58,448 nt of DNA. It comes from Planctomycetota bacterium (GTDB lineage: Bacteria > Planctomycetota > Phycisphaerae > WQYP01). The stretch spans positions 1 to 58,448 of the forward strand of contig JAKBAC010000003.1 of assembly GCA_021809365.1 (NCBI GenBank), given 5' to 3'. This document shows, in pieces, positions 45,400 to 52,180 of this stretch (positions are counted from its first letter, which is position 1; each line of letters begins with the position of its first letter). The position numbers and the translations under genes were made by a program. A model generated the notes under the pieces. That model worked only from the letters and a program-made list of their open reading frames with translations, was not told where the DNA came from and ran no database searches.

Positions 45400-46929
45400 A
45401 TGACGTCGGCCATCCATCATGTGCACCTCTTTGCTTCGCACAGCGTCGCCAGTGAACCACTGGAAACGGCGGCTTTACTGGCGGTGTTCGGGATATTAAG
45501 TCTAATTGCGGTTTTGTCCAGCCGGGCGGCTGATCGGATCGGCGTACCGGCGGTATTGCTTTTGCTGGTGCTGGGAATGCTGGCCGGGCCGGAAGGTTTT
45601 GCGGGCATTCACTTTCAGAATTTTCATTTCGCGTTCCGCCTCGGCACCATGGCGCTGATTTTGATCTTGTTTGAGGGCGGCCTGACCACCCCATTGCGCG
45701 CGGTCAAATCCGTGCTGTTCCCAGCCTCATTGCTGGCCACGGTGGGCGTCACGCTCACGGCGGTCATCATTGCATGGTCCGGACATCTCATGGGGCTGAA
45801 CTGGCCGGAAGCCATGCTGATCGGGGCGGTGGTGTCATCGACGGATGCGGCGGCCGTTTTTTCCGTGCTGCATGCGGGGCGTCTGCGACTCAAGCCGCGA
45901 TTGTCGCGAACTTTGGAAGTGGAATCGTGCATCAATGATCCCATGGCGGTAATCCTGACCACGATAGTCATTGAGTCACTTTCGCAACAACAGCCGGCCA
46001 TTGGATGGATGCTTATGCAGGTGCCGATCCAACTGGTTGTCGGTGGAATTGTGGGGGCTTTATTGGGTGTGGCGGCCCGATATATTCTCCGGCGAATGCC
46101 GCTGCCGAGCACCGGGCTGATTCCGGCGTTTACTCTGGCGATGGCCATATTGTCTTATGGATCCGCGACGATTCTTCAAGGCAGCGGGTTTCTGGCGGTG
46201 TACGCCACGGCATTGTTCATGGATGCATCAAGTCTGCCTTTCCGCAGCGGGTTACTGCGTGTGCATTCGGCCCTGGCATGGCTGGGGCAGATTGGAATGT
46301 TTTTAATGCTGGGACTTCTGATTCTGCCATCCCAGTTGGCACACGTTACATGGATCGGCTTGGGAATCGCGATGATTCTGGCGCTGTTTGCCCGGCCCGT
46401 GGCGGTGGCGGCGTGTCTGCTGCCACTGCGGTTTTCCATCGTGGAAACACTTTATATCGGTTGGACGGGGCTGCGCGGAGCGGTGCCGATTATTCTGGCG
46501 ACATTTCCCATGATGGCCCATCTGCCCGGCTCGCAGAGCGTTTTTACCATCGTCTTTTTTGTGGTGGTGGTCAACACCCTGATTCCCGGTGCCACAATCC
46601 GCTGGGTTACGCGCAAACTGGGTCTGGGTCAGGAGGAAAAGCCATCCCCGGAGGCGGTGCTGGAAATCAACTCGGGGCGTCCGCTGGGCGGGGAACTGGT
46701 ATCATTTTTAATTGAACCATCCGCCGCGGTATGCGGTGCGGCCCTGCGTGAACTGGAATTTCCCACCGGAGCCAGCGTGATGCTGATTGTACGCAGCGAT
46801 CAACTCATTGCGCCACGCGGGGATACGGTTTTGCAAATCGGTGACCATGTCTACATGTTTTTCAAGAATCAGGATCGTCCGCTTATGGATCTGCTTTTCG
46901 GTAGACCGGAGAATGATGCATACTCGTAA
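45400..46929 (+). CDS. CPA1-type cation/proton antiporter with C-terminal RCK_C domain (NhaP2/CvrA-like)
   Basis: This 509-residue protein has 12-13 membrane helices and belongs to the monovalent cation:proton antiporter-1 family. The key motifs are GAVVSSTDAAAVFSVL in TM5 and LEVESCINDPMAVILTTIV with the ion-binding Asn-Asp. TM11 has GWTGLRGAVPIILATFP. A C-terminal TrkA_C/RCK_C domain (about 420-495: GGELVSFLIEPSAAVCGAAL and onward) is as in NhaP2/CvrA potassium/proton antiporters and suggests nucleotide regulation. ATG 45400 has AGGA 8 nt upstream; the longer frame lacks support. The 3' end overlaps the converging NuoN-like gene by 47 bp. Confidence 0.92.
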   Translation: MTSAIHHVHLFASHSVASEPLETAALLAVFGILSLIAVLSSRAADRIGVPAVLLLLVLGMLAGPEGFAGIHFQNFHFAFRLGTMALILILFEGGLTTPLRAVKSVLFPASLLATVGVTLTAVIIAWSGHLMGLNWPEAMLIGAVVSSTDAAAVFSVLHAGRLRLKPRLSRTLEVESCINDPMAVILTTIVIESLSQQQPAIGWMLMQVPIQLVVGGIVGALLGVAARYILRRMPLPSTGLIPAFTLAMAILSYGSATILQGSGFLAVYATALFMDASSLPFRSGLLRVHSALAWLGQIGMFLMLGLLILPSQLAHVTWIGLGIAMILALFARPVAVAACLLPLRFSIVETLYIGWTGLRGAVPIILATFPMMAHLPGSQSVFTIVFFVVVVNTLIPGATIRWVTRKLGLGQEEKPSPEAVLEINSGRPLGGELVSFLIEPSAAVCGAALRELEFPTGASVMLIVRSDQLIAPRGDTVLQIGDHVYMFFKNQDRPLMDLLFGRPENDAYS

Positions 46930-50059: not shown

Positions 50060-52180
50060 TCATGTTTTTTGGTGAATGACCGCCGCCAGCACCGCCGCCA
50101 CAATAACCAGAACCAGTCCGACCGTCACGTACAGGGCCGGATACACCCGCCGCAGTTGGCGCACCCGCTGGGCCATCCGCACCGCGAGTCCATCCAGCCG
50201 CTCCCAAAACGATGTATTCAACCCGTTTTCCGCAGCCGCCACAAGAATACTCGCCAGGCGAATGAGCACCGCCAGTGTCACCATCAGCCATTCCACCACC
50301 CAGCGATCCAAAAATGCCACAGCCCGCGCCACCAGGCGCACCGGGAATCCGATGAAGGCGATAAACAAATCGGGAAAGTACATGTCCGCGGTAAGCCAAC
50401 GATATACCAGATTCGGCCCCGGAAGCCGCCGCAACGACTGGGCACTCGCCATACCACCGGAATAAAATAATGCCACCAGCGCCAATGCCGTCGGCCCCAG
50501 CCATGCCAATGGTCGCAGCAGCATGCCGCTCAAACCAGCGGGAACGTGGGGCGTTCTCTGGCCGATCCCGGTCTGCATCAAATGCGTTAACAGCGCCGCC
50601 ATATCCACCAGCGGCTGGGCCGCGATCACCGCGCTAACCAGGATGATCAGCAACGGGAATGTTTGAACCGCCAGTTCGCCCCCTTCGCAAGGTTCTCCCC
50701 GCGACCTGCCACCGAAGACCAGCCACCACCAACGCGCCAACGCCAACGCGGTAACGTAGCATAGTACCACCGGCGACCAATACAAAAATCGGCCAAACTC
50801 ACCAATGGCCCAGCCGTAGGCATGAGCATGCAACAACCCGGCCCGCATCACCGCGGTCATGCCGAAGGAACCTGTGCCGGCCACTCCCAATACCAGCGCT
50901 CCGCTCACCGCCGCTGTTATCGGCAAACGCCGCCACACTCCGCCCAGCAGCGTCATATCACGTTGTCCACCCGTGGCGCGCAAGACTGTTCCAGCCGCCA
51001 GAAACAGTCCGCAGTACACCAATCCGATCAGCATCGCCCCCACCAAACCGGCCGCATAATCACCGGATCCAAAAAATAAAAAATTCAAACCGGTCTGTGC
51101 AATCAACAGCCAGGCCAATGTCCGTTTGATGTCTTTCTGTACCAGGGCAATCAGTGCGGCGCAAAACTGCGTCACGGCACCCATCATCGCGACCGTTAAC
51201 GCCGCATTCAAATTCAACAGCCCGGCCATGCGCGTCAATAGAAGTATCCCGCCCGCCGCCACCAGCGAACCGGAAATCATCGCGTTGCCGCCGGAAAATC
51301 CGGTGACAGTCTCTGGAACCCAGGTGTGAAATGGAAACTGCCCCGCCTGAACCAGAGCGCCCGCCAACAGACATACCCCGCCCAGGCTTTGCCAGGTCAG
51401 TCCCGGAAACAACCGCGCCATCCCCGCTACCAGCATTTCCCGCCCGGGTGTTGCCCCCAAAGCGGAAAGCTCGGTATGGCCGAAAAGAATCCGCTGCTCC
51501 ACCGCCGTTCCATGCAGCATAAAAATCGCGATGCCCATGAGAAAAAAGGCATTGCCGATCCAATGCGGAAGTAACAGCTTCCGCGCAATAGCCGTCTCTG
51601 GCGGACGGTTGCTCCAGGCCATGATGCACCAGCCCGCGCAGGCCGCCAATTGCAAAAAGAAATACGTCTCGAGCGCATTGATGGACAGGGCCGCCATCAG
51701 CAGGAAAAAGGCCATGAGATTGGTCAGCGCGAAGTAGGGCGGTCGAATATCGTTGGACTTCAATAAGCCCAGCGTATGAACCTGCGACATCAACAGGATC
51801 AGCAGGAACATCATAAAAAACGCGAGGCTAAGCGATCCACTGGAAATGCCCGCCTGGATGAGAATCGCCGTGCCCCCCTGGCCGGCGGCGGATATCGGAA
51901 TCCAGGAAAACGCCAACGCATGGGATTGGGATTGGCCGGGAATGCCCGCATGCTCCAGCCGCCGGATGATGGCCAGCATGGCCACCGCCAGCGCCGCCAG
52001 CAGCGAGCCGATGCTGATATAGGCCGCAGTGCGGGCTGATCGCCCCGGAGCGCCGGCGATAATCAAAAAACCGCCGAGCGCCATTCCGGCGGCCAGCAAC
52101 AAAATGGCGTTGGCATGCATCATCAAATTCAACGAATCCAAACACGGGGCCATTGCGAGATTGCCGAAAACCTTCCGCAT
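50060..52180 (-). CDS. NuoL-like antiporter-type membrane protein, divergent
   Basis: This protein is about 706 residues with some 15-16 helices and a C-terminal amphipathic helix plus final TM, as in NuoL. QFPFHTWVPETVTGFSGGNA matches the NuoL signature QFPLHTWLPDAMEGPTPVSA, and QKDIKRTLAW matches the helix 9-10 region. Key residues differ: TM5 Glu becomes Gln (FLQLAACAGWCIMAW against FWEGVGLCSYLLIGFW), the TM7 Lys becomes Gln, the TM8 His becomes Ser, and the FxSKD motif of TM12 is absent. The frame is open to 52225; ATG 52180 (GGGG upstream) or 52198 are the likely starts. It is the first gene of the trio. Confidence 0.82.
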   Translation of the reverse strand: MRKVFGNLAMAPCLDSLNLMMHANAILLLAAGMALGGFLIIAGAPGRSARTAAYISIGSLLAALAVAMLAIIRRLEHAGIPGQSQSHALAFSWIPISAAGQGGTAILIQAGISSGSLSLAFFMMFLLILLMSQVHTLGLLKSNDIRPPYFALTNLMAFFLLMAALSINALETYFFLQLAACAGWCIMAWSNRPPETAIARKLLLPHWIGNAFFLMGIAIFMLHGTAVEQRILFGHTELSALGATPGREMLVAGMARLFPGLTWQSLGGVCLLAGALVQAGQFPFHTWVPETVTGFSGGNAMISGSLVAAGGILLLTRMAGLLNLNAALTVAMMGAVTQFCAALIALVQKDIKRTLAWLLIAQTGLNFLFFGSGDYAAGLVGAMLIGLVYCGLFLAAGTVLRATGGQRDMTLLGGVWRRLPITAAVSGALVLGVAGTGSFGMTAVMRAGLLHAHAYGWAIGEFGRFLYWSPVVLCYVTALALARWWWLVFGGRSRGEPCEGGELAVQTFPLLIILVSAVIAAQPLVDMAALLTHLMQTGIGQRTPHVPAGLSGMLLRPLAWLGPTALALVALFYSGGMASAQSLRRLPGPNLVYRWLTADMYFPDLFIAFIGFPVRLVARAVAFLDRWVVEWLMVTLAVLIRLASILVAAAENGLNTSFWERLDGLAVRMAQRVRQLRRVYPALYVTVGLVLVIVAAVLAAVIHQKT

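Follow-up and report, generated by a model that had tools for sequence, protein, structure and literature searches.

A NuoL/NuoM/NuoN-like trio of Phycisphaerae without proton-path residues: probably a retained, non-pumping remnant of a second complex I

What becomes of the antiporter-like subunits of complex I when their genes stand apart from the other nuo genes and the residues of the proton path are replaced? The question is raised by a contig of a Planctomycetota bacterium (JAKBAC010000003.1 of assembly GCA_021809365.1; class Phycisphaerae), of which we analyzed positions 1 to 58,448 of the forward strand, the whole stretch being called the window here. It carries three consecutive intact minus-strand open reading frames (ORFs), spaced by 48 and 24 bases, whose products resemble NuoL, NuoM and NuoN in this order (the L-like, M-like and N-like proteins; Table 1). 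An initial annotation, made from the letters alone, had placed this trio between a divergent gltBD operon upstream and a converging antiporter gene downstream, a layout that the ORFs and their domains confirm. It had also stated that no other nuo gene is adjacent, which held: among the window ORFs of at least 70 amino acids, searches with 13 nuo and nine hyf proteins of Escherichia coli found no further relative, and phmmer found no NuoJ- or NuoK-like ORF of this size. The window has the trio only, without adjacent nuoA-K, and no nuoA-K genes adjoined the corresponding genes in the relatives' loci that were read. We consider it probable that the trio descends from a second complex I and has been retained as a non-pumping membrane module.

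Complex I-like subunits without the known proton path

The best family matches of the three proteins were NuoL, NuoM and NuoN, respectively. Pfam family PF00361 matched the L-like and M-like proteins, and the N-like protein had no Pfam match. The M-like protein passed the NuoM cut-off (TIGR01972; 287.3 versus 263.8 bits); the L-like protein was under the NuoL cut-offs (TIGR01974, 139.7 versus 407.5 bits; NF005141, 161.3 versus 556 bits) and the N-like protein under that of NuoN (TIGR01770; 38.7 versus 332.6 bits). The L-like protein is predicted to have the fold of NuoL, an antiporter-like helix bundle with a long lateral helix (HL), while the AlphaFold model of the N-like protein was poor (predicted local distance difference test score, 51).

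The window proteins were aligned to E. coli NuoL, NuoM and NuoN, whose numbering is used here. PMC9271201 describes the roles of the pairs E133/K217, E144/K234 and K229/D178, and of K247, K265, H322, K395, K399, D400 and E407; according to PMC3046159, E133 of NuoN mattered less than E144 of NuoL and NuoM. At the four transmembrane-helix (TM) sites taken to mark a pumping subunit (TM5 Glu, TM7 Lys, TM8 Lys or His, and TM12 Lys or Glu), the L-like protein has none of these residues, the M-like protein none, with Asp in place of Glu at TM12, and the N-like protein none, with Arg in place of Lys at TM12. The alignment agreed with the initial annotation in reading the TM5 Glu as Gln in L, Thr in M and Leu in N and the TM7 Lys as Gln in L and Arg in M, as well as in the absence of the FxSKD motif from L and of HxWxPD from N; it added Trp at the TM7 Lys site of N, which had been overlooked.

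Searches with the three proteins found 13 close relatives of L (63 to 67% identity), nine of M (70 to 73%) plus one at 43%, and six of N (40 to 50%); the remaining L and M matches were far weaker, and N had no further ones. Among the best 80 loci of a scan of species genomes, those of eight Planctomycetota metagenome-assembled genomes (MAGs; loci L001 to L008) ranked above many Bacillus-type NuoL, and five of the eight loci had the complete trio. These MAGs may be of acid-mine origin. A separate canonical set, for which the initial annotation had suggested a search, was found in the same relatives: L and M were read in G001 to G007, together with N, K and J if the contig extended far enough, while nuoD-E-F-G lay at a separate place in G001, G002, G003, G005 and G007. 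The canonical nuoH was single in all eight and nuoA was single in six and absent in two, MAG incompleteness limiting this and every other absence counted here. The trio is thus an addition to complex I in these genomes, not a replacement; the window's own canonical complex I is inferred from them.

The canonical complex I genes of this group were dispersed (L127 to L138 and L141, in G001 to G007), with nuoD-E-F-G, nuoH, nuoA and nuoJKLMN apart or on separate contigs, so that operon-based annotation may miss the complex I of this order. One MAG, G003, had two near-identical canonical nuoJKLM(N) sets (L131 and L132), probably the result of a mixed bin.

The GTDB order, reached via relative G002, has 28 genomes here, the same 28 as its family. 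Sequences of the window's kind, called degenerate below, were found for both L and M in 24 of them (G001 to G008, G011 to G018 and G020 to G027). L and M adjoined each other in all cases where the contig was long enough to show it, in changing neighborhoods, and they lay on separate contig ends in G006 and G008. An N-like gene stood beside them in G001 to G006, G026 and G027, giving nine sequences with that of the window. Of the other four genomes, two (G009 and G010) had an intact M of the type A kind described below and one (G028) had an M of intermediate state; in G019 no M was found at this level. Both G011 (L215) and G015 (L216) showed an additional degenerate L-M pair, its L being closest to the copies of G018 and G013; these are possibly extra copies or contamination from mixed bins.

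Residues were counted in aligned sequences (rows) of at least 400 amino acids, and the degenerate ones were compared with two reference groups: type A, the second complex I of Phycisphaerae, and type B, the canonical complex I of the order (nuoJKLMN). Type A (15 rows) and type B (8 L, 10 M and 8 N rows) all retain the listed path residues; D400 is Asp in 12 type A L rows, Glu in two and Ser in one. In the 24 degenerate M rows, E144 is replaced by Thr (10 rows), Gln (7), Ile (4) or Ala (3), K234 by Arg in every row, K265 by Leu (10), Ile (8), Val (5) or Met (1), and H322 by Gln in every row. All nine degenerate N rows have Leu at E133, Trp at K217 and Arg at K395 and have lost K247. The 26 degenerate L rows are less uniform. 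All have lost H254, H338, K342 and K399, unlike the TM5 and TM7 residues; E144 is retained in five, H334 in six and D178 in 12 of 22. The changes at TM5 and TM7 of L are largely private to the window: its 13 close relatives all have the TM7 Lys, and 10 of them have the TM5 Glu (Gln in two, Ala in one), so that among these relatives the loss of the TM7 Lys is wholly its own. The consistent loss in all three proteins claimed by the initial annotation therefore stands clade-wide for M and N, whereas the L losses that it named at TM5 and TM7 are partly private or sporadic.

In M and L, other conserved charges fared differently from those of the path. In M, path residues were kept in 6 of 120 alignment cells, versus 207 of 240 cells for other conserved charges (P = 0.001 by position), and five of these other charges, at the sites of E. 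coli H241, E250, D310, R365 and E464, were invariant. In L, the corresponding counts were 34 of 230 and 156 of 284 (P = 0.011), and the Asp aligned to E. coli D561 was retained in all 25 degenerate rows that have letters there.

Selection and probable descent from a second complex I

Ratios of nonsynonymous to synonymous substitution rates (dN/dS) were calculated by the Nei-Gojobori method, with a script of our own, between pairs of relatives, the window not being among them. In six overlapping pairs of the window's clade, the ratio was 0.051 to 0.083 for M-like, 0.096 to 0.144 for L-like and 0.177 to 0.310 for N-like genes, and the canonical genes of these genomes gave 0.047 to 0.100 (L), 0.058 to 0.098 (M) and 0.056 to 0.116 (N). 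Seven pairs without N gave 0.050 to 0.209 for M-like and 0.097 to 0.228 for L-like genes, with canonical values, where read for the same pairs, of 0.072 to 0.301. In the window's clade, the constraint on M-like genes equals that on canonical nuoM, and elsewhere it is roughly comparable; L-like genes are less constrained, and N-like genes the least.

These values bear on whether the trio is a relic that slowly decays without function. The loss of the path residues, the failure to find a second nuoH, nuoK or nuoD, the lack of an N beside L-M in most genomes and the N-like ratio of up to 0.31 would all fit such decay; it is made very improbable by M-like ratios at the level of canonical NuoM in the window's clade, by degenerate M matches that diverge to between 37 and 72% identity with the window and show no internal stop except where the G007 match ends, and by two replacements (K234R and H322Q of M) that are fixed. 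Pseudogenes or sequencing errors were disfavored on the same grounds, namely open frames in the window and in the degenerate M matches, dN/dS of 0.05 to 0.31 in relatives and fixed replacements. The initial annotation had named relaxed selection as a sign of pseudogenes, which these genes do not resemble, and its argument that the losses are not random error is borne out by M and N changes common to relatives and by purifying selection in the pairs.

Where the trio comes from was sought across the class, in a draw of 298 genomes with the best four candidates scored per genome and a threshold of E = 1e-60 for the M match. Outside the order, 48 genomes had an M match at this value or better, with up to 38% identity over most of the length. 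Among the 18 of these loci that were read, 14 had J, K, L, M and N together, one had K, L and M, one had L, M and N with A to D and I nearby, and two were cut by contig ends. Three of the 18 (L241, L247 and L248) were excluded from the type A rows.

Trees of a quick site-mixture type were built from chosen subsets of 39, 33, 29 and 36 rows, with support by the Shimodaira-Hasegawa-like approximate likelihood ratio test (SH-aLRT). In the M tree, the degenerate rows were monophyletic (100), with the M of G009, G010 and G028 as their sister (99); these together grouped with type A (99) and were nested in it at 90. Grouping the degenerate M with type B was rejected by the approximately unbiased (AU) test (P = 5.3e-5). 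The degenerate L grouped with the L of G009, G010 and G028 (100) and with type A (100), and a type B grouping was rejected (P = 0.0088); the degenerate N grouped with type A (99) and with G009 and G028 (100). A FastTree analysis with a distant outgroup, likewise limited to rows of at least 400 amino acids, had put the degenerate M and N at the base; it was set aside as a probable long-branch pull, and the site-mixture trees were used. As far as sequences can tell, L, M and N all belong to type A by descent, the type B alternative being rejected for L and M and not for N, and the trio appears to be a membrane-arm remnant of the second, type A complex I that the ancestors of the order carried. 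This descent, and the survival of an intact form in the same order, had escaped the initial annotation, as had the occurrence of L-M alone in most genomes.

Intermediate genomes suggest how the second set was lost. Two canonical NuoH were found in G009 and in all five outgroups, versus one in 18 and none in six of the 24 degenerate-set genomes. NuoK over the cut-off was found twice in G009, G010, G028 and all five outgroups and at most once in degenerate-set genomes, except in G003, which also carries the two near-identical canonical sets; canonical-strength NuoD was found twice in G009, G019 and the five outgroups and at most once in degenerate-set genomes. By these copy counts, a second nuoH, nuoK and nuoD were not found where the set is degenerate, save for the two nuoK of G003. 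G009 has its second L together with K and J; its M and N are together in another place, and it has an additional copy of both H and D. Path residues are retained in its L, M and N and in the L and M of G010, both genomes having Glu at the position aligned to L D400. G028 is partly degenerate: its L has Asn at D178, Ser at K342, Arg at K399 and Gly at D400; its M has Arg at K234 and has lost K265, H322 and E407; and its N has lost K247 and has Arg at K395. Since the M tree pairs G028 with G010 (98), the change of K234 to Arg seems to have occurred twice.

What the retained module may do

Descent from a type A complex I followed by retention of a non-pumping L-M(-N) membrane module is the reading that we consider probable, and the residues and trees support the suggestion of the initial annotation that the trio is a complex I-derived membrane module without the known proton path. 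The products would assemble side by side into a proton-tight block held together by the lateral helix of L, and this block would not pump, given the replaced path residues. It might then replace the pumping distal (L + M) section by docking on the proximal arm of the complex I that remains, a step that is our leading mechanism and that we regard as somewhat doubtful. Docked complexes would form a fraction whose H+/e- ratio is reduced, a "low gear" under a high proton motive force. This gear shift, in which stripped and pumping distal sections compete for a place on the same proximal arm and the installed arm sets the number of protons pumped per electron, is to us unlikely. According to PMC3160329, which has the distal module concept, a yeast complex I without this module still works, at half the stoichiometry, which makes docking physically possible.

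Several findings, given in this and the next two paragraphs, weigh against a non-pumping module of type A descent or against its docking. The trees, of a quick type, have long branches, and for N a grouping with type B was not rejected (P = 0.095), its stem being very long (6.98). N also shows no contrast between path residues and other conserved charges (0 of 36 versus 3 of 65 cells), and the counts of kept residues, those of M and L included, come from rows that share ancestry and are not independent events. Of the six matched pairs without N, four had a higher dN/dS for M-like genes than for canonical M, and two had a lower one.

Other findings concern the partner. No partner gene of L-M(-N) common to the clades was seen, neighbors differing from one clade to the next. 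In 16 of the 24 genomes no N-like gene was seen beside L-M, the flanks having been read and no genome-wide search for N made; docking would there need the type B NuoN, from which M diverged deeply. Canonical NuoD, NuoH and NuoM were not found in any of the four genomes G020 to G023, by possible loss of complex I or a possible shared binning gap, and a true absence of complex I there would make docking wrong. The last two points favor an independent membrane complex, in which L-M(-N) left complex I and works alone or with another partner, for instance as a scaffold or a non-proton channel, as does the recurrence of L-M as a unit while its neighbors vary. We hold such a complex to be unlikely on the whole, and nearly as likely as docking: no gene was seen to accompany the pair through the clades as a partner, and the predicted fold of L and the preserved scaffold charges of M fit continued contacts of the complex I kind. 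G020 to G023 were dropped as proof of independence, because G021 has nuoJ-nuoK at a contig end (G021:C30; L323, positions 1 to 990).

Path residues are not replaced everywhere. At the E407 site (TM12), the 24 degenerate M rows have Asp (8), Glu (6), Pro (5) or others (5), so that an acidic residue remains in 14, the Asp of the window included; the TM7 Lys of L (K229) is retained in 11 of 26 rows, and the TM5 Glu of L in five. The initial annotation had allowed for a Glu shifted to a neighboring helix; a candidate for a shifted Glu in L stands six residues before the TM5 site, in the same stretch, in eight of 26 rows (the window and seven others). Retention at these places could leave some residual path, and ions, either protons or Na+, might still pass by a path rebuilt from the fixed M TM7 Arg, the M TM12 Asp or Glu and the L TM7 Lys, as in an antiporter or channel. 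Such transport seems improbable to us in view of the loss of M K265 and H322 in 24 of 24 rows, of the four L residues lost in 26 of 26, and of all four path residues in nine of nine N rows, and of the replacement of the L TM7 Lys by Leu in eight rows, Phe in four and Gln in the window.

A further alternative pairs the trio with another redox complex, such as a hydrogenase-4-like one, several of which these genomes carry. The order often has Hyf-like clusters or genes that include several antiporter-like proteins, and yet the degenerate genes were not beside them in the loci read, the trio is NuoL/M/N-like by sequence and not HyfB/D/F-like, and G002 keeps the trio while showing a single NuoD-family gene, the canonical one; we judge this partnership quite improbable. 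One hydrogenase-4-like cluster, at L139 (G006:C512), has three HyfB-like ORFs, one of them cut by the contig end, with relatives of HyfC, HyfE, HyfF, HyfG and HyfI.

The locus, known systems and significance

Table 1. Features of the trio locus and of the path-residue codons in the window (E. coli numbering after the equals sign)
Feature	Position	Strand	Remarks
L-like gene (degenerate NuoL, type A descent)	50060-52180	-	706 amino acids; ORF start possible at 52225
M-like gene (degenerate NuoM)	48434-50011	-	525 amino acids; TIGR01972, tree and AU test, dN/dS in relatives
N-like gene, most diverged of the trio	46883-48409	-	508 amino acids; TIGR01770, 38.7 bits; tree; adjoins L-M in the window's clade only (9 rows)
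L residues 599-651, long helix at the place of the NuoL lateral helix	50228-50386	-	predicted helix, followed by C-terminal helices
L codon Q177 = NuoL E144 (TM5)	51650-51652	-	alignment
L codon Q278 = NuoL K229 (TM7)	51347-51349	-	Lys in 13/13 close relatives
M codon T147 = NuoM E144 (TM5)	49571-49573	-	Glu lost in 24/24 rows
M codon R241 = NuoM K234 (TM7)	49289-49291	-	Arg in 24/24 rows
M codon V272 = NuoM K265 (central Lys)	49196-49198	-	hydrophobic in 24/24 rows
M codon Q329 = NuoM H322	49025-49027	-	Gln in 24/24 rows
N codon L143 = NuoN E133	47981-47983	-	Leu in 9/9 rows
N codon W219 = NuoN K217	47753-47755	-	Trp in 9/9 rows
N codon F249 = NuoN K247	47663-47665	-	Lys lost in 9/9 rows
N codon R398 = NuoN K395	47216-47218	-	Arg in 9/9 rows
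gltB	52532-57145		divergent, upstream of trio; Pfam GATase_2, Glu_synthase, GXGXG
gltD-like ORF	57021-58448		upstream of trio, beyond divergent gltB
K+/H+ antiporter gene	45346-46929	+	downstream, converging; overlaps N end by 47 bases

A promoter and terminator scan gave results at about chance level. The neighborhood of the trio differs between the window, L001/L005, L002/L003 and L004. The next gene downstream is common to L001, L002, L003 and L005 and encodes a fucose isomerase, judging by the one copy that was read; within the window's clade such a gene adjoins at seven loci, one of which was read, and the window is without it. Elsewhere the neighbors included Fpg/MutM (six loci, of which two were read by Pfam), FabF (five loci, of which one was read) and a ClpX-like gene (G018). 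Away from the trio, the window has an intergenic repeat at 40905-41028, 44982-45042 and 45149-45272, whose copies are 85 to 93% alike and flank the gene block at 41.2 to 44.7 kb; a radical SAM protein with DUF3463 at 41273-42442, presumably HpnH-like; and a cluster of short direct repeats of 42 to 55 bases, with spacings of 110 and about 243, at 37006-37735, a stretch without a listed ORF of at least 180 amino acids.

The trio resembles NuoL/M/N of complex I in its L-M-N order, in the predicted L fold with its lateral helix, in the PF00361 matches of L and M and in the TIGR01972 score of M. It differs in having no adjacent nuoA-K, in its replaced path residues, in L and N scores far below the cut-offs and in coexisting, in relatives, with a canonical set. 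The distal (PD) module of complex I has L and M (ND5 and ND4) as its core, and L and M alone together in most genomes of the order have this core composition, whereas the trio is a separate paralogue without path residues. MrpA and MrpD and the subunits of hydrogenase-4 and MBH belong to the same superfamily (PF00361), and the trio scores far lower to them than to NuoL/M; no MrpB, MrpC, MrpE, MrpF or MrpG partner was found by Pfam among 35 window ORFs, small ORFs lying outside that scan. Antiporter-like subunits are reused with non-canonical partners in the DAB system (DabB) and in cyanobacterial NDH-1MS. DabB2 (9rd0_B) and NdhF of NDH-1MS (6tjv_F) are weak sequence matches to L; no DabA partner domain was found among the 35 window ORFs (31 at E = 1e-8), the neighbors in relatives being only sampled, and, unlike in NDH-1MS, no Cup-like partner gene was seen in the window. 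In "2M" complex I, an extra NuoM is added within one operon; the trio likewise adds antiporter-like subunits beside a normal set, and differs in being separate and in its lost path residues.

In the open-access literature we found neither a description of an L/M/N set that stands alone and is stripped of its path nor a paper on NuoM K234R. The relevant part of PMC12361115 reports many genomes with partial nuo clusters, this case not being among them, and that of PMC11266412, a survey of electron transport in Phycisphaerae, does not mention it. What is new is the retained but stripped module; the subunits themselves are of known kind.

Which parts of antiporter-like subunits serve structure and which serve pumping is a long-standing question. 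The M-like family is a natural experiment on it, with four path residues gone in 24 of 24 rows, five charges invariant and selection as on canonical NuoM in the window's clade. Within this order of bacteria there are also successive stages, beginning with an intact second set, passing by a half-degenerate one and ending with the stripped L-M(-N), from which the sequence of events can be read. Docking, if true, would be a genetic means of altering the proton stoichiometry of complex I; if it is false, a respiratory pump would have been turned into something else. Either way, the shape of a pump appears to be kept under selection in an uncultured group of Planctomycetota, though it probably no longer pumps.

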